NCBI GenBank assembly: GCA_944324235.1
Contig: CALUVN010000013.1
Span: 1 to 44,010, forward strand
Direction of reading: 5' to 3'
Source: Candidatus Gastranaerophilales bacterium
Lineage (GTDB): Bacteria > Cyanobacteriota > Vampirovibrionia > Gastranaerophilales > Gastranaerophilaceae
DNA length: 44,010 bases
This document shows positions 1,548 to 10,964 of the stretch, one piece after another. Made by a program: the position numbers and the translations under genes. Each line of letters starts with the position of its first letter. Position 1 is the first letter of the stretch. A model generated the notes under the pieces. It had not been told where the DNA came from. It made no database searches and was given only the letters and a program-made list of their open reading frames with translations.

Positions 1548-2438
1548 TTAATAATACTGATCAAAGACAACATCGCAAGGAGATGTTTCTTCAGTACATC
1601 CGGTTTTGCAGCAAGGTTGTACTGTAGGATTTGTTTCACAGGATTCAGGGCAAGTTGTAGCCGGTAAACCGTTATTGAGTTGCGGCGGAGTCGGGTATGA
1701 TACTTTCAGAGGGCTATCTGCGGGCAAATCATTACTGAAATTCAATGACATCATTTCTGTACTGTCAATATTATCCCCCCACGCAACGTGCTTAGCATCC
1801 CAGTAAGACATCGGAGTGGAGTTGTACCCATCCTTGCAGCACATGCAGGCAGGAAATGAAACAGTAGCTGTAACATATCTTGTATCAATTTCCGGCGGAC
1901 CTATCGGTATAACATCGGCGCTTTCGGTTACAATAAACGCAACTACATCACAAGCCTTTTTTTCGCTCCATACAGTGGAATTTGGCGGTCTTTCACCTGT
2001 CAAATCCACATATACAATAAAGTATTTAATAGGTGTATCAACACCGTAGTCATCTTCTTCAGTGTGTTCATATTGTTTTGTAATATAAAATCTCATAGCA
2101 TTACTTGCGATAAAATGAGGTTCAATGTCTGTAAAATTTGTTGTTTGATTTGTTGCAAGTTCGCCGTCAGCTATATCACAATTCGTGTATGAAGTATTCA
2201 TATATTCTATCAATCCTTCACAGAGTTTTTTAGGTGTGGAAAAGAAGGTGTCTTCAGAGTTATCAATATATGCATTATAAGAAGCATTGGCAACGGATTC
2301 AAATGCACGTGCATATAAAGATCTAAGGGCTTTTTCAAAAGGTTTTACAGTCATAATGGCAATCATAGCAATAAATGCCATAATAGACATTGTTATCAAT
2401 ATTTCTCCGAGTGTCATCCCAAGTTTTTTATTTGTCAT
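1548..2438 (-). CDS. Type IV prepilin-like protein, Cys-rich C-terminus
   Basis: This 296-aa protein has a class III prepilin signal: a short basic leader ending in KKLG, then MTLGEILITM with Glu at +5, followed by about 20 hydrophobic residues. The +1 residue is Met, not the usual Phe. Such proteins are cut and N-methylated by a PilD-type peptidase and assembled into pili or pseudopili. The C-terminal third has Cys clusters (CMCC near 200, CPESC and QPCC near 265-280), probably disulfides or a metal site. The start is backed by GAGGA upstream. It is divergent from the pilin operon across a 144-nt shared promoter region, so the two are likely functionally linked. Confidence 0.85.
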   Translation of the reverse strand: MTNKKLGMTLGEILITMSIMAFIAMIAIMTVKPFEKALRSLYARAFESVANASYNAYIDNSEDTFFSTPKKLCEGLIEYMNTSYTNCDIADGELATNQTTNFTDIEPHFIASNAMRFYITKQYEHTEEDDYGVDTPIKYFIVYVDLTGERPPNSTVWSEKKACDVVAFIVTESADVIPIGPPEIDTRYVTATVSFPACMCCKDGYNSTPMSYWDAKHVAWGDNIDSTEMMSLNFSNDLPADSPLKVSYPTPPQLNNGLPATTCPESCETNPTVQPCCKTGCTEETSPCDVVFDQYY

Positions 2439-2582: not shown

Positions 2583-4463
2583 ATGCGAGGTATAAAAAGA
2601 TTCAATAAAAAGTTAGCTGCATTTTCATTGGCAGAGATGTTACTGGTATTACTCATAATGTCGTTTTTATCAGTGGCAATCGCGCCATTTGTAACCAAAA
2701 AAGTAAAAAAAGATACATTAAGACAACCCCATGGCAGATTTGAGTGTTTTTGGGACGGAGACAGACTTGTTCAGTACAAGGTACTTGAATCAGGCACCGG
2801 AGTTGAAGAAGACAGGACTGCTACAGGTTATTGTGAATTTGAACCGGCAGCTCGTGCGACATTTTATCTAGTACAAGGTGTTGGCGGCGGCGGTGGTGGC
2901 GCTTTTGCTGCACTAGCTCCAAATATAAAAACTTTTACTGCAAAATATACTGACAGGGATGAAGCAAATCAGACTGTTGACGCTGGTTATTATATTCCTT
3001 GTTCAAGGTTGAAAAATGACTCAAATCAAGTGAGAACTGAGTATTATGCAGCATGTACAGGCCATATAAAGGATAGTTTTAGTGACAGTTCAGCTCCTTC
3101 AGAAACTTCTTCTAAATGGGCCTGGGTAAATGAAATATGGAATGATCCGGCATATACACCAACAAGAACATATAAAATTTGTTCCGGACATGGTGCCGGC
3201 GGCTGGGGTGTTGGTGCATGGGTTCTTGTAGATGATGGAGTAAGCGGTTGCGTTAATCCTGACGGGTCCGCAAATGCATCACCGATTTTCCCTGAATCAA
3301 GCGACCCTGCAGATGATTTAGATCCTTGTTATGATTATCCTGATGCACGGGGCGGACAAGGCGGTGATGGCGGCTGTGTCGAAATTACAGTAACATTGCC
3401 GCAAGGTTCATTGGTTGAACGCGGAAATTTAAATTATGGTTTCACTGTCGGATACAAAGATAATGGCCCTGATATATACGCAACATACGGTATTGAAAGC
3501 TGTCTTGTCACAGGAGGAAAAGTAGGCGAAGACGGTGAAGATTCACGTGCTAACGGCAACTGGGTTCCTGGTGCGGATGGCGAAGATGCCACATTGTCAG
3601 TCTTTAATACAACAGACACATTGGATTCAGTACCATATACTTGTACCGGTGCACTTACTACAGGTTCTGTCGGCGGCGACGGCGGCGACGGCGGTATGTG
3701 GAATCCTAATGCCTTGCCTTGGACACTTACTTACGGCGGTTCAAATTCAAATAATTCATTTGAGTTCAGTAAGTCTTTTGTTCCTATATCCTACGAATAC
3801 AAAAGAGCATATAACTATTACGGAATGGCCGGTGGTGCTGGTGAATACAATATGATGTTTTTCCCTGAAATAACTCAGAAGATAAAAATAGTCCCGGGTA
3901 AAGCAGGAAAAGGCGGTACAGGTACTCTTGACGACCAGCAAGGACAGGCCGGCGGTGCTACAACGGCTACATTTGCAAACGAAACTACACCATTTTTATC
4001 TTTAGCAGGTGGTCGAGGCTCAAAAACTAAAATGGCAGGAAATTATTTTAACTTGTATTCCCAAGATCCGGTGTATAACAATGATACATCTATGGTTACA
4101 GCCAGAATTGGTGAATATTCAGACTTCGTAGCTGCAATTTCAGCAGATGAAGGTACAAATCTTCAAAGTATTATTCCTGATGATGCAAAACCGGGAAGAG
4201 GCGGAGACGGAGGATATACGGTACTTCGTGATACACGTAACGGCGGAAAGCGTGCATTTGACGGGCATGATTTTACAACAGCAGGTGATGAACGTTTTGA
4301 ATATGGCGGGGACGCTCTAGAATTGCCTGTAAATTCTGCCAAGGAAATTGTTTGTCACGACCATGGTCCATTGTTGCCGGAATACAGGCTTAAAATCGCC
4401 GGTGAAGAAACATACTGTCCTGGTGAAGATGGTGAAGACGGAGCGGTAATTATTATATGGTAA
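2583..4463 (+). CDS. Prepilin with large glycine-rich adhesin-like domain (paralogue 1)
   Basis: This 626-aa protein starts with a prepilin signal: leader ending KKLAA, then FSLAEMLLVL with Glu +5 and a hydrophobic helix to about residue 37. A conserved block follows: HGRFECFW (about 50-57), a second Cys (about 84), an aromatic strand, then six Gly at 101-106. The body has many GGxGG runs, a block GEYNMMFF...VPGKAGKGG, and ends DGAVIIIW. This layout (aromatic strand, Gly run, VxPGxGG, DGAVxI end) matches the glycine-rich domain of phage tail-fibre and other secreted proteins (Gly_rich_2 type), here on a pilin stalk. First gene of a four-prepilin operon. It probably acts at the cell surface; adhesion is inferred. 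Confidence 0.85.
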   Translation: MRGIKRFNKKLAAFSLAEMLLVLLIMSFLSVAIAPFVTKKVKKDTLRQPHGRFECFWDGDRLVQYKVLESGTGVEEDRTATGYCEFEPAARATFYLVQGVGGGGGGAFAALAPNIKTFTAKYTDRDEANQTVDAGYYIPCSRLKNDSNQVRTEYYAACTGHIKDSFSDSSAPSETSSKWAWVNEIWNDPAYTPTRTYKICSGHGAGGWGVGAWVLVDDGVSGCVNPDGSANASPIFPESSDPADDLDPCYDYPDARGGQGGDGGCVEITVTLPQGSLVERGNLNYGFTVGYKDNGPDIYATYGIESCLVTGGKVGEDGEDSRANGNWVPGADGEDATLSVFNTTDTLDSVPYTCTGALTTGSVGGDGGDGGMWNPNALPWTLTYGGSNSNNSFEFSKSFVPISYEYKRAYNYYGMAGGAGEYNMMFFPEITQKIKIVPGKAGKGGTGTLDDQQGQAGGATTATFANETTPFLSLAGGRGSKTKMAGNYFNLYSQDPVYNNDTSMVTARIGEYSDFVAAISADEGTNLQSIIPDDAKPGRGGDGGYTVLRDTRNGGKRAFDGHDFTTAGDERFEYGGDALELPVNSAKEIVCHDHGPLLPEYRLKIAGEETYCPGEDGEDGAVIIIW

Positions 4464-5419
4464 AGATTTCTCAACATAAAAAAATAGCCTTTTCTATGCT
4501 GGAAGCCTGTATAACAATGTTTATGGTTGCAGTATTCACAGCGGCAGCTACAAATATTTTTACCCAGAAACACCAGAAGGTCGCACACACTACAAGCCAC
4601 GGTGCATTTGAATGTTATTACAATGAAGAAGGCGCATTATGTCAGCGTTCAGCCTCAGAGGGAATATACCAAAATCCTACCTGCGGAATAGTGGAATGCT
4701 CATTCAGACCTTCAAGAGCCGCAGAATATTTCGTTGTTAACGCAATAGGCGGCGGTGGCGGCGGTAATACTGCCGGTTTGGGCGGTACATCAGGTGAATA
4801 CAGAACATTCTTTATTCCGTCAATAGCTAAAGAATTACGTATAGTTCCGGGCGTTGCAGGACTTGCCGGCTCAAGCCCGACTGCAGGTTCTAATACTGAA
4901 GTCAGAAATACTGACGGTGAAATTCTGTTGATTGCATACGGCGGGAAGGCCGGTTTTGTTAATACCACTTCTTATATAAATACTATTAAAGCAGAAGAAA
5001 TATTTTCTTGTTCTTTGTACTTTGAAGATGGGTCTACAGCACTCGAAACATGTGCGGAAAAAGGAACGAACCCTTCTTGCAGCGTAGGAACGAGTTCTAT
5101 TACAGCGAACTATTGCCGTGCAATGACTTCTCGGTCATTACCTACAAATAGTGATTTGTTCTTTGATTTGGACGATAATTTGTATTTTGCGGACAGTTCA
5201 ATGCGTACTGCCGCAAACGGTGTCAAAATGTACCTTTACGTGCGCGATGAGGTTTTGAATTTTAATGATACGGTCAATGAAGATCCTTCAAAGTTAAATG
5301 AATATCTGGATGCTGCCCAGCTTGGCGACGATATTGATGTACGTGATGCCGGAACCGGCGGCCGAGGCGGAGCCAGCGCAGAAAACGGCAAATCCGGAGC
5401 AGTTTTAATTGTTTGGTAA
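4457..5419 (+). CDS. Prepilin with compact glycine-rich domain (paralogue 2)
   Basis: This 320-aa protein is the short member of the glycine-rich prepilin family. The prepilin signal is HKKIA then FSMLEACITM with Glu +5. It keeps the family marks in order: HGAFECYY (about 48-55), a Cys pair near 76-81, AEYFVVNAIGGGGGG (about 89-103), GEYRTFF (about 113-119), IVPGVAG (about 128-134), and a C-terminal SGAVLIVW. It lacks the large central insertions of its neighbours, so it probably shows the minimal domain. Its ATG overlaps the end of the previous gene by 7 nt (ATGGTAA), which implies translational coupling. There are about eight further cysteines near 190-220. Confidence 0.85.
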   Translation: MVKISQHKKIAFSMLEACITMFMVAVFTAAATNIFTQKHQKVAHTTSHGAFECYYNEEGALCQRSASEGIYQNPTCGIVECSFRPSRAAEYFVVNAIGGGGGGNTAGLGGTSGEYRTFFIPSIAKELRIVPGVAGLAGSSPTAGSNTEVRNTDGEILLIAYGGKAGFVNTTSYINTIKAEEIFSCSLYFEDGSTALETCAEKGTNPSCSVGTSSITANYCRAMTSRSLPTNSDLFFDLDDNLYFADSSMRTAANGVKMYLYVRDEVLNFNDTVNEDPSKLNEYLDAAQLGDDIDVRDAGTGGRGGASAENGKSGAVLIVW

Positions 5420-5446
5420 CAATAATAAAATTGAGGATAGTTATAT

Positions 5447-7342
5447 ATGTTTAAATTGCGTGATACAAAATTAGGTTTTTCTTTAGTTGAAATGATGCTT
5501 TTATTGCTGATTTTATCATTAATGACAGCAGCATCAGTTCCTATCTTATCGCGTAAACACAGAAAAGCTCCGGTAAAGGCTTTTCATGGCCGTTATGCGT
5601 GCTTCTGGAACGGTAATCAATTGTGGGAACAACAATATTCAGGTGAAAACATAATCAAAGACGGTGCAGTAGCTCAATGTAAATTTGTTGCGCCTAAAAA
5701 AGCAAATTATTTCTATATCCAGATTGTAGGCGGCGGCGGTGGCGGCGGCAATGCAGGATATTACAAGCCTGAAGACAGAACTGCTTTGCGTGTTACAAAT
5801 ACTCTTACCGAATCTGCGCGTTATTATGTCCATACAGGTAAAGCGTCTTCAAGTTTGTCTCAGTTTGATTTGACCGAAGAACAGTTTAATGATTTTGTCG
5901 GAACTAAATACACTTATCTTGCCGTAGGTTCAACAAAAGGAAATTATTGTAGTGAACACGACAGAGAAGAAGACAAATCAATGCAATGTGAGAGTTTTAA
6001 CTATAACTCAGGTATCTATCGTTGTGCGGATGCAAATGATACAAAAAAATATTTACCAGAGTTTACAACAAGGGATGCCTGTTTGGCTGGTAATATAACA
6101 GATCCGGCAACAGGAGAGCAGCAAATTATACATGTTTGGATTGAAGACGTAACTCAAGGTCCTTGTGAGAATGAACGATACGGAGATGCCGGGCCTGTTG
6201 TTTATACTAACGCAGAACAAATAAGATTCGGTTTGCATACAAATTATTTCACTGATTGGAGTGATTCAACAACGTGGAATTCATCTTCTAATCATAATAA
6301 CAGTGGTGAGTTCGCCGGTTTTAGAAATGAAATGGGGGATAAGATTTCTTCAGATATAGAGCGTGCTCTCGGCGGTAAAGGCTACAGAAAATATTTTAAA
6401 TTCAATACTGAAAATATAGTAGAGAATATGGCTGAATCTCAGGGTGGCGAAGGCGGTGAAAAAGCTATATGCCGCGGAGCTGCAGAAGATCCGCGACAAA
6501 CTTGTGCATGTTATGCGGATTCAGTTTATCTTACACCGGATGACGGCGGTGCTGTCTCAGGCCGTGAAACTGAGCCTACTTCCTCAGAAGTTTGTCTGGG
6601 TGCAGATGCAAACTGTCTTGTAAAAGTAACTGCAGATACTCCTAAGTTTGGACGTAACGAATACTATCAATCTCAAAATATGAAATATGGAATGGGCGGT
6701 CAGGCAGGTGAATATAAAACATTCTTTGCCAGAGAAATTGACCCTGATACTATAATTTTACCGGGTAAAGGCGGTCAAGCCGGAGCAATGTCTGATGATA
6801 CAACATCTTACGGCTCGGACGGTGAAGCGTCTCAAATGGGTAATATGATTGCTGATGGCGGTGTCGGCGGTGTCGGTAACAGAAATACAGGTAAACTGCG
6901 CCTCCCGACAAAAGACGATCCGGAATACATTGCAAACGGTAATAAAAAATATGCTCAGGGCGATCCGGGTGCGGTTTCCGCTTTCCAATTTGAGGCGAAC
7001 CTGCTCGGTATAAAAAATCCTAGAGAATCTGAATTTGATTATGCTAACTTTGGTTCAGGCGGTAACGGCACTACAGTTACAAACTTCTGCTGGGAAGGAT
7101 ATTATAAAAACGTATTCACCGGCGCATTCAATCCTGACAAAGGTGAAAATGCTGATATAGAATATAAAACTCAATATCCATGGGCAGAAGTTACTTGTAA
7201 TGCTCCTGGCTCGGCATATCCTTGGGTTGGCGATACAACTCAAAACAATAATACGTCCGGATATTATAACGGCGCAGTTGTTGTAGAATCCGGCAACGAA
7301 GCTCAAGACGGTTACACAGGTGCAATTCTAATAAGCTGGTAA
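5447..7342 (+). CDS. Prepilin with large glycine-rich adhesin-like domain (paralogue 3)
   Basis: This 631-aa protein has a canonical prepilin signal (TKLG then FSLVEMMLLL, Glu +5), HGRYACFW at about 47-54, and seven Gly at 95-101. A long Cys-containing insertion covers about 110-400. After it the family block returns (GGQAGEYKTFF...ILPGKGGQAG near 420-450), then GGVGGVG runs and a C-terminal TGAILISW. GAGGA lies about 10 nt before the ATG, which is 27 nt after the previous stop. The long insertion between conserved blocks suggests a variable, ligand-facing region displayed from a fixed glycine-rich scaffold. That last point is inference. Confidence 0.85.
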   Translation: MFKLRDTKLGFSLVEMMLLLLILSLMTAASVPILSRKHRKAPVKAFHGRYACFWNGNQLWEQQYSGENIIKDGAVAQCKFVAPKKANYFYIQIVGGGGGGGNAGYYKPEDRTALRVTNTLTESARYYVHTGKASSSLSQFDLTEEQFNDFVGTKYTYLAVGSTKGNYCSEHDREEDKSMQCESFNYNSGIYRCADANDTKKYLPEFTTRDACLAGNITDPATGEQQIIHVWIEDVTQGPCENERYGDAGPVVYTNAEQIRFGLHTNYFTDWSDSTTWNSSSNHNNSGEFAGFRNEMGDKISSDIERALGGKGYRKYFKFNTENIVENMAESQGGEGGEKAICRGAAEDPRQTCACYADSVYLTPDDGGAVSGRETEPTSSEVCLGADANCLVKVTADTPKFGRNEYYQSQNMKYGMGGQAGEYKTFFAREIDPDTIILPGKGGQAGAMSDDTTSYGSDGEASQMGNMIADGGVGGVGNRNTGKLRLPTKDDPEYIANGNKKYAQGDPGAVSAFQFEANLLGIKNPRESEFDYANFGSGGNGTTVTNFCWEGYYKNVFTGAFNPDKGENADIEYKTQYPWAEVTCNAPGSAYPWVGDTTQNNNTSGYYNGAVVVESGNEAQDGYTGAILISW

Positions 7343-7362
7343 TTAAGAAAGGTGTATAAATT

Positions 7363-8058
7363 ATGTTAAAAACTAAAAAGGCATTTACATTGGCAGAACT
7401 TATGGTTTGTTTGTTACTTATTTCAGTATTGGCAACTATTTTGCTTCCTGCGATTATTCAAAACAAGCCTAATAAAAGTAAAGTGCTCTTCAGAAAAACA
7501 TACTACATTATAGAACGTGTTGTCAGCGAACTGATAAATGATGAGGATATTTATCCTAATAATGAAGAAGAAGGCCTTATGGGATTTGCAAACTATGGAG
7601 AAGTCACTTATGCAGGTAATGATTACAGCGGTGTTACTAAATTTTGTAATCTGTTTTTTGAAAAATTGAATACAACTTCTGCATCTCCGCGTTGTGTCTC
7701 TTCTGCTGAAACCCCTAGTGCAACCCCTACTTCCGCAGAAAATGAAGGTTCTTTTATGACTAATGACGGTGTTATCTGGTATTTACCTGCAACAAAACGT
7801 TTTGCATCAGAGAATTATGAAGCTATACCTGAGAGTGATGATGGTACGGGGCATATAATTCCGGGAACTCCTGGCGGTGCTGTAGAACAGGAAGTCCATG
7901 TTGATGTTAACGGAATTACAAAACCTAATTGCTTTTACGACGTTGATACTTGTTCTGAGCCGGACAGATTTACAGTTTATGTAAGATATGATGGCAAAGT
8001 TCGAGTTGAAGGTGAGAAAGAGCGTGAATATTTGATGTCGAATTCAACTCTTAAATAA
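7363..8058 (+). CDS. Type IV prepilin/pseudopilin without glycine-rich body
   Basis: This 231-aa protein has the leader MLKTKKA then FTLAELMVCLLLISVL, with Glu +5 and a hydrophobic N-terminal helix. The rest is an ordinary pilin-like globular domain with four cysteines, a Thr/Ser/Pro-rich stretch near 105-125, and a C-terminal strand FTVYVRYDGKVRV typical of pilin-like proteins. It has none of the Gly runs of the three preceding genes. It is last in the operon, 20 nt after paralogue 3, with AAGGTG upstream. It may be the fibre-forming or initiating subunit that carries the larger glycine-rich subunits; the role is inferred from position. Confidence 0.85.
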   Translation: MLKTKKAFTLAELMVCLLLISVLATILLPAIIQNKPNKSKVLFRKTYYIIERVVSELINDEDIYPNNEEEGLMGFANYGEVTYAGNDYSGVTKFCNLFFEKLNTTSASPRCVSSAETPSATPTSAENEGSFMTNDGVIWYLPATKRFASENYEAIPESDDGTGHIIPGTPGGAVEQEVHVDVNGITKPNCFYDVDTCSEPDRFTVYVRYDGKVRVEGEKEREYLMSNSTLK

Positions 8059-8135: not shown

Positions 8136-10964
8136 ATGTTGGACAGGATTATAATAAAAGGCGCAAAAGAGCATAACCTGAGGGACGTATCGCTGGAACT
8201 TCCGAAAAATGAACTGATTGTTTTTACAGGCGTTTCAGGTTCCGGAAAAAGTTCTCTTGCTTTTGATACTATTTTTGCGGAAGGTCAAAGACGCTATGTC
8301 GAAAGTCTTTCTGTTTATGCAAGACAGTTTTTGGGTCAGCTTGACAAACCTGATGTCGAATATATTGACGGGCTTTCCCCTGCAATTTCCATTGACCAGA
8401 AATCAACAAGCAACAATCCGCGTTCTACCGTAGGTACTGTTACTGAAATTTATGATTACCTGAGACTTTTGTACGCGCGCGTCGGCACTCCTTATTGCCC
8501 GAATTGCGGAGAACCTGTCAAGCCGCAGTCTATCGATGAAATAGTCAATAATATAATGGCACTCGGTGAAGGTACTAAGATTCAAATTCTTGCACCTGTT
8601 GTAAGGGGTAAAAAGGGAGAATTCCAATCCATATTTGAAGAACTCCGTCAGGAAGGTTTTGTCCGTGTTAAAGTCGACGATGAAGTTTATAACCTAGATG
8701 AAGACGATATTGAATTAAGCAAAACAAAAAAACACACAATTCAGGTTGTAGTAGACAGAATTGTCGTTAAGGATTCCGCTCAATCGCGTATCGCAGACAG
8801 TGCCCAGATTGCACTCAAAAAAGCGGACGGGATTATGGTTGTGGATGTGATTGGTGATAAGGAAATTATTTTCAGCGAAAAACTTGCCTGCCCTAAATGT
8901 AATTTAAGCTTTGAAGAACTTGCCCCGCGGATTTTTTCATTCAATAATCCTTACGGAGCCTGTGAAAGATGTTCAGGATTAGGTGCGGATTTCGTTATTG
9001 ACCCTAATCTTGTTGTTCCTGACAGAAAAAAATCTATCTCAAACGGTGCGATTTACCCGTGGTCAAAAACATCAACAAATTATTACGATGATGTTTTGAA
9101 ATCAGTTTGTGAACATTACGGTATTAATATGGACACTCCGTTTGAAGATTTACCGGACTCTCAGCAGCAAATTATTCTCTACGGCGGCGACGACCTTGTT
9201 AAATTCCGTGTAATGAAATTCGGTACTCACAGGTATGAAACCAAATATCATAGATTTTCCGGTGTAATTCCGTTTCTGGAAAAACGCTATAACGATTCTA
9301 CAGCAGAATACTGGCGGGAAGAAATTGAGAAATATATGGTTACAACACCTTGCCCTGCATGCAACGGTGCCAGATTAAAACCGTTCCCGCTCGCCGTCAA
9401 AATTTTGGACAAAAATATATATGATTTTACTCTGATGTCGATTGATGAGGCTATTGAGTTCGTATCAGATTTGTATCTTGAATTAAGTGAATATCAAATT
9501 CAAATCGCAAGGCAAATCCTTGACGAAATCCGTGCACGTCTGAAATTTTTAAAAGATGTCGGTTTGGGCTATCTGAACCTTGCCCGTATGGCAGGCACGC
9601 TCTCCGGCGGCGAAGCTCAGCGTATAAGACTCGCAACTCAAATAGGCAGCGGACTTTCAGGGGTTTTATATGTTCTTGATGAACCTTCAATCGGACTTCA
9701 CCAGCGTGATAATGACAGGCTTATTAAAACACTGATTAAACTTCGAAATCTTGGCAATACTCTGATTGTTGTTGAACACGATGAAGAAACAATGCGTAAC
9801 GCTGATTATATTGTTGATATCGGGCCAAAGGCGGGGATTAACGGCGGTAAAATTATTGCACAGGGAACTCTTGACGATATTGTTAAATGCAAAAGCTCGC
9901 TTACAGGACAATATCTAAGCGGGGAAAGGTTTATTCCAATCCCTGACAAACTCCGTGAAGGCAACGGGGCAGTGCTTTCTGTAAAAAATGCTCATCTGAA
10001 TAACCTTAAAAATATCAATGTAGATATTCCGCTTGGTAAAATTGTAGTGTTAACAGGCGTTTCAGGTTCAGGTAAGTCAACCCTGATGCAGGATCTTATT
10101 TCTGAATACGCGCTGCACGTGCTCCGCGGTAACAAACCAAAACCGCAGGGTGTGGATGAAATTACAGGTTTTGAAAATATTGATAAAGTTATTTCCATAG
10201 ACCAGTCGCCGATTGGTAGAACTCCACGTTCAAACCCTGCAACTTACACGGATGTCTTTACGCAGATAAGAGAACTTTATGCTAAAACCAATGAATCAAA
10301 AGTTCGCGGTTATAAAGCCGGAAGGTTTAGTTTTAACGTTAAAGGCGGACGCTGCGAAGCATGTAAAGGCGACGGTGTTATTAAGATTGAAATGAACTTC
10401 CTCTCCGATGTTTATGTCAAATGTGATGTCTGCAAAGGTAAACGCTATAATAGAGAAACTCTTGAAGTTAAATATAAAGGCAAAACCATATCAGACGTCC
10501 TTGATATGAGTGTCAAAGAGGCGCTGGAATTTTTTGACAGTATTCCGTCAATTAAAAATAAGTTGAAAACGCTGAATGACGTAGGGTTGGATTATATCAA
10601 ACTCGGGCAAAGTGCAACTACACTTTCAGGCGGGGAGGCTCAGCGGATTAAGCTGGCTTCCGAACTTAATAAGCGAGCAACAGGCAGAACGCTTTATCTG
10701 CTTGATGAACCGTCGGTTGGTCTGCACTGGTATGATTTGGATAAACTTATTAAAATCCTGCACAGGCTTGCAGATCAGGGAAACACAATTCTTGTGATTG
10801 AGCATAACCTTGACTTAATAAAAGTGGCAGATTATATTATAGATTTAGGGCCGGAAGGCGGCGCCGGCGGAGGTCAGGTTGTGGCAGCCGGAACTCCGCA
10901 AGAAGTAGCTAAAGTTCCGGAGTCTTATACCGGACAATATTTAAAATGTATTTTCTACAAGTAA
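8136..10964 (+). CDS. uvrA: Excinuclease ABC subunit A
   Basis: UvrA is the damage-sensing ATPase of nucleotide excision repair; it loads UvrB at lesions. The 942 aa match the usual length. Visible in order: Walker A GVSGSGKS (about 32-39), zinc-binding CPNC and a second CPKC...CERC module (about 250-280), ABC signature [11 protein letters not shown] and Walker [10 protein letters not shown] in the first half, a second Walker A near 641-648, a CEAC...CDVC zinc module, and a second [11 protein letters not shown] with LDEPSVGLH. The start at [10 protein letters not shown] fits the family N-terminus exactly. The gene is probably transcribed alone or with the exported protein 13 nt downstream. 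Confidence 0.98.

Follow-up and report, generated by a model that had tools for sequence, protein, structure and literature searches.

Three adjacent genes near one end of the window, the 44,010-nucleotide stretch of a Candidatus Gastranaerophilales contig analysed here, raise the question of what proteins that join a prepilin N-terminus to a glycine-rich body might do. An initial annotation of the sequence had described products of 626, 320 and 631 aa, and open reading frames of these lengths, here called A, B and C, lie at the predicted places, all on the forward strand (Table 1). The range that it assigned to them, 2583-8058, does contain A, B and C, but also takes in a fourth prepilin gene (D) without a glycine-rich body.

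Table 1. Coordinates of the prepilin genes, and of the parts of A, in the window.
Feature	Position	Strand	Content	Evidence or remark
Gene A	2583..4463	+	626 aa; prepilin N-terminus, predicted TNF-like/glycine-rich head, variable insertion of ~280 residues	
A residues 1-40	2583..2702	+	Leader, AF/SLAE site, prepilin helix	N_methyl 15 bits; E18; helix 16-33
A residues 45-122	2715..2948	+	First half of head core, HGRFEC...C84...GGGGGG	pLDDT >90 across most of 51-110
A residues 123-401	2949..3785	+	Hypervariable insertion	Mostly absent from orthologues; occupancy 0.07-0.5 across most
A residues 402-626	3786..4460	+	Second half of head, GGAGEY...VPGKAG...terminal GAVIIIW	Gly_rich_2; pLDDT
A/B overlap	4457..4463	+	ATGGTAA, 7 bases (A end, B start)	Sequence
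Gene B	4457..5419	+	320 aa, smallest member; prepilin helix 9-36, head 48-320	
Gene C	5447..7342	+	631 aa; prepilin and head with large insertion	
Gene D	7363..8058	+	231 aa; ordinary-looking prepilin without glycine-rich head	N_methyl over cut-off
Gene E	1548..2438	-	296 aa; divergent prepilin upstream of A, without head	N_methyl weak

The 7-base overlap between A and B recurs at 25 of 44 loci, a nucleotide arrangement suggesting that translation of the two genes may be coupled. Another prepilin gene is found within 1.5 kb downstream at 20 of 47 loci (one of them a truncated C), and a divergent prepilin gene within 1.2 kb upstream at 18 of 47. The neighbours of the three genes are chromosomal, such as the uvrA-like ORF at 8136-10964. 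Further upstream, a 194-aa ORF on the reverse strand (853-1437) looks by eye like a small divergent kinase (GLGSTAAAF, ILKLS, LYLLDPE) and has no Pfam match. The same ORF and several unrelated ones (373-723 on the forward strand, and others at loci L067, L073 and L079) open with an N-terminal NF(N/K/R)(G/A) motif, as in SISNQNFNG and NLSNINFKA; the density of the motif over the first 40 residues is about four times that in other parts, and some of its 12 matches are clearly unrelated.

Each of A, B and C begins with a short basic leader, an (A/G)F(S)xxE site and a hydrophobic helix, so that the class III prepilin N-terminus with its Phe and its Glu at +5, as originally proposed, is present in all three. 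The Glu at +5 is invariant or nearly so in the orthologue alignments of A, B and C, drawn from about 45 species; E18 of A is unchanged among 44 orthologues. The Pfam N_methyl model (cut-off 21.2 bits) matches A (15 bits) and C of the window below its cut-off and has no reported match in B, and within the wider A-B-C family its best match is at 6.8e-8. The predicted helices comprise 18-28 residues (B 9-36, A 16-33) and run directly into a TNF-like body through a basic link region of low confidence. Because the helix is short and is followed by this weakly predicted basic linker, the models suggest that these proteins may lack the four-stranded sheet on which the long alpha-1 helix of a type IV pilin packs, the head being hung on the helix. 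The same short helix, poorly predicted linker and lack of a visible pilin beta-sheet in the models would also suit proteins in which the prepilin signal is a membrane anchor only, the heads acting in the periplasm or on the surface outside any filament. In pilus filaments, Glu at +5 serves subunit docking; its invariance in all three orthologue sets, and the presence of other prepilin genes close by in most loci, speak against a simple anchor and make it improbable.

Beyond the helix, the three proteins share the same ordered blocks: HGxF/YxC, another Cys with xF after it, a strand that closes on a run of Gly (six in A and B, seven in C), GEYxx(M/F)F, (V/L)PGxxG and, at the C-terminus, GA(V/I)(I/L)I(I/V/S)W. 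The presence and order of these blocks agree with the initial annotation; its spacing of three residues between GEY and FF holds for A, but in B and C the FF lies two residues past GEY. Both head Cys, the residues of the Gly run and the last Gly, Ile and Trp are invariant or nearly so among orthologues from about 45 species, and on this alignment evidence the shared blocks are therefore not due to chance. The insertions behave differently, as had been anticipated, with low occupancy and low within-genus identity around a conserved fold core: residues 221-240 and 341-360 of A have 8-10% identity to same-genus species (the lowest within-genus identity in the insertion being 0.08), whereas its helix and first head half have 63-95%. 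The long insertion of A and C sits between the Gly run and GEY; that of B lies in the region from mid-head to the C-terminal strand. Orthologues of A span about 350-730 aa and those of C about 540-1116 aa; those of B, mostly 290-400 aa, are the most constant in length. A short subunit of constant length is what would be expected if one or more of the three were the major pilin, building a shaft coated with glycine-rich heads as a sheath or biofilm matrix. Proteins of 700-1116 aa, which A and C reach, would be hard to pack along a shaft, and the genome has many small prepilins of ordinary type at other places that make better major pilins, so that such a shaft is very unlikely.

AlphaFold2 models of A and B, built from alignments of 44 and 47 sequences, respectively, predict a TNF-like plus glycine-rich fold for both bodies. 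The model of B has a mean pLDDT of 84.2, with most of the head core above 90; that of A has a mean of 72.3, with core segments near 51-110, 411-480 and 611-626 mostly above 90 (81-97 over 401-490 and 94-95 over 611-626) and a poorly predicted insertion. Structural comparison with VIA-align gave only three strong matches: the tail fibre gp24 of cyanophage Pam3 (PDB 7ypx and 7yfw; Z 11.8 over 128 residues with rmsd 2.3 for B; Z 12.1 over 160 residues with rmsd 3.0, and Z 11.3, for A), the tail tip of mycobacteriophage Bxb1 (PDB 9d93, chain Q; Z 10.3 for B and 10.7 for A) and the glycine-rich (TG) domain of ALK/LTK (Z 7.3-8.8 for B and 7.0-8.5 for A). The next structural match scored 4.2 for B and 3.9 for A, and this gap makes the match credible; separate models of two paralogues led to the same leading structures. 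Foldseek found no match in the PDB at E <0.001 (best E 0.012), and against a viral library it matched phage glycine-rich and minor tail proteins at E of about 1e-5 for B and about 1e-4 for A. As the Foldseek PDB scores are weak, the fold assignment rests on the second look with VIA-align, the viral library and Pfam. Sequence searches against solved structures returned pilin N-termini or chance matches only, with no match to solved glycine-rich domains. The compact bodies of A and B, with their high core pLDDT and their phage matches, agree with the phage-tip-like glycine-rich body that the initial annotation had proposed, and neither model took the form of a plain pseudopilin with disordered Gly linkers. 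For C, the head is recognised through homology and through the Gly_rich_2 matches of its orthologues.

Pam3 gp24 consists of helical, TNF-like and glycine-rich domains, with a conserved stem and a variable distal tip, and resembles C. elegans ALK (PMC9608196). Its likeness to A-B-C lies in the predicted TNF-like sandwich with glycine-rich loops and in the division into a conserved and a variable part. However, gp24 trimerises through a helix bundle at its N-terminus and has a chaperone, gp25, whereas A-B-C have a prepilin helix, and no chaperone gene was recognised near them. The Bxb1 protein is likewise a phage tail component and not a pilin. The ALK/LTK domain, although alike in its TNF-like plus glycine-rich fold, belongs to the ectodomain of an animal receptor kinase, binds a cytokine and has no sequence match found to A-B-C.

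Support independent of the models comes from sequence families. The curated cut-off of Gly_rich_2 (PF21722), 24.3 bits, is not reached by the window proteins (20.1 bits for A, 14.1 for C, no match for B), the match in the second half of A lying at 3813-4286 (E 6e-5). It is passed by orthologues of A (25.0 bits) and C (31.9 bits) and by another family member (69.5 bits), which bears out, for orthologues of A and C, the Gly_rich_2-type body that had been proposed; altogether 10 of 20 family members match (best 5.6e-19). A PHROG family of tail-fibre-assembly proteins matches 6 of the 20 (best 1.6e-20), and PHROG tail fibre and minor tail protein families match some members, PHROG names being annotations and not tests. 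The strongest Gly_rich_2 matches are very glycine-rich relatives (17-22% Gly), single or paired, in other genera of the bacterial family (L046-L048, L053 and L055), and these relatives may form the nearest connection to the domains found in phages.

Relatives of the three proteins occur in 13 of 59 related genomes, almost all of them from the same bacterial family, and usually in tandem. Scanning one genome for each species yielded 48 loci, from entries titled Gastranaerophilales, Melainabacteria or uncultured. By ORF extraction, 39 of 47 loci contain all three genes, without exception in the order A-B-C, and this fixed order extends over about 45 Gastranaerophilales species. One of the 39, L080, has C on the opposite strand; at several of the other loci the set is cut by a contig end or C is elsewhere. 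In a tree built on the initial 105 residues of the mature proteins, in which the columns are few and the inner forks unsure, a single branch sets apart each of A (93/91), B (98/88) and C (100/99); as judged from these sequences the three are therefore ancient paralogues that have been retained together. A helix-free model of the head, which in the window finds the first head half of A at 1.9e-20 and C at 5585-5746, matches 62 of 386 genomes in a sample limited to Cyanobacteriota, every one of them from the window's own family and together representing 13 of 142 genera; outside that family it found no head in this sample. Elsewhere in the order, other genera and families gave weak matches to the full B profile (1e-6 to 1e-8), which are probably due to the prepilin helix alone, since the helix-free model gives none outside the family. 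Gly_rich_2 occurs outside the family in a few cyanobacterial proteins, and the ORFs readable there have no prepilin N-terminus.

In one lineage C appears mobile: it is inverted beside A-B in L080 (11211-14021, reverse strand), and in the genome of L088 it lies on another contig (L051, 1203 aa), with an ORF that by eye is photolyase-like following A-B in L088. An invertible element was considered for the reversed C of L080, and the inverted pairs found were short, imperfect and not convincing. A phage or prophage origin was also considered: a scan of viral contigs with the B alignment gave no relative, and tblastn of A against phage records gave none. With chromosomal neighbours and an order conserved across species, A-B-C do not look like tail fibre genes of a phage or prophage.

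In the same genome, genes for a secretin (PilQ) and a PilB-type ATPase adjoin those for two PilC-type proteins; a prepilin peptidase (Peptidase_A24) and two ATPases of the PilT type are encoded as well, and the A-B-C cassette lies on a different contig from the genes of the pilus machine. Pilus genes have been reported earlier in the Gastranaerophilales group (PMC5877343). At L114 (9588-12875), a short-chain-dehydrogenase-like ORF separates two PilC-like genes of the pilus machine locus. PilY1 (PF05567) had no matches in 39 relatives and likewise none in the control genomes, so that this result does not establish that PilY1 is missing. Because only one secretin is encoded, it cannot separate a pilus from a type II secretion system, and A, B and C might instead be pseudopilins of a machine of the latter kind, whose pseudopilus tip recognises secreted cargo, so that the heads would bind substrates and not surfaces. 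GspH is weakly matched by four family members, and a trio of large minor subunits is reminiscent of the GspI-J-K tip; but the two PilT-type ATPase genes speak for pili that retract, the nearest folds belong to receptor-binding tips, and hypervariable insertions suit surface recognition better than fixed cargo, which leaves a secretion role with little likelihood.

The preferred reading, to which we give a probability of roughly 0.6, is that A, B and C are minor type IV pilins showing an adhesive head, most likely at or near the pilus tip. We infer leader processing, entry into a type IV pilus, the tip position and ligand binding. The prepilin peptidase would trim the leaders, and the N-terminal helix, of about 25 mature residues, would enter the inner membrane and then the pilus core, the PilB/PilC/PilQ machine exporting the three proteins. 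In place of the usual pilin head, a TNF-like beta-sandwich would project its glycine-rich loops and long variable insertions, much like the tip of a phage fibre; the conserved sandwich would be the scaffold, and the variable loops would bind a surface (a glycan, mucin or another cell), with pilus extension and PilT retraction leading to attachment and pulling. An obligate heterotrimer of one A, one B and one C, joined via the TNF-like domains into a torch-shaped pilus cap like the trimeric Pam3 fibre, is an attractive but doubtful extension by analogy, attractive because the TNF-like domains of gp24 are trimeric and there are exactly three ancient paralogues in a fixed order. If true, it would be a phage-fibre-like head presenting three different, fast-evolving binding surfaces.

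A prepilin N-terminus joined to a Gly_rich_2/TNF-like head, a domain not specific to type IV pili, places A-B-C among the modular pilins, an idea already known that they extend. The modular pilins PilB (vWA) and PilC (lectin) of S. sanguinis likewise carry an adhesion-type domain on a type IV pilin N-terminus (PMC8179133, PMC9934059). The module of S. sanguinis PilB is, however, grafted on a complete small pilin, whereas the head of A-B-C seems to replace the pilin head, and A-B-C differ further in that three paralogues share one head. Among modular pilins 264 domain architectures have been counted (PMC8179133), and the word glycine is absent from the main text of that study. In agreement with the initial annotation, no published link between pilins and this domain turned up in a literature search, supplements and most of the subscription literature lying outside that search. 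The combination of a prepilin with a glycine-rich head is thus a real, conserved and apparently undescribed architecture, which adds to the domains that evolution has placed on pilins.

The predicted fold is rare and would connect the recognition of hosts by phages with receptors of animals and pili of bacteria. The Gastranaerophilales, gut-dwelling relatives of cyanobacteria, are widespread and for the most part uncultured. Even so, the head could be produced in soluble form and screened for ligands with no need to culture the bacterium, and the conserved three-pilin set, with its phage-fibre/ALK-type head, is a concrete candidate for attachment in the gut.
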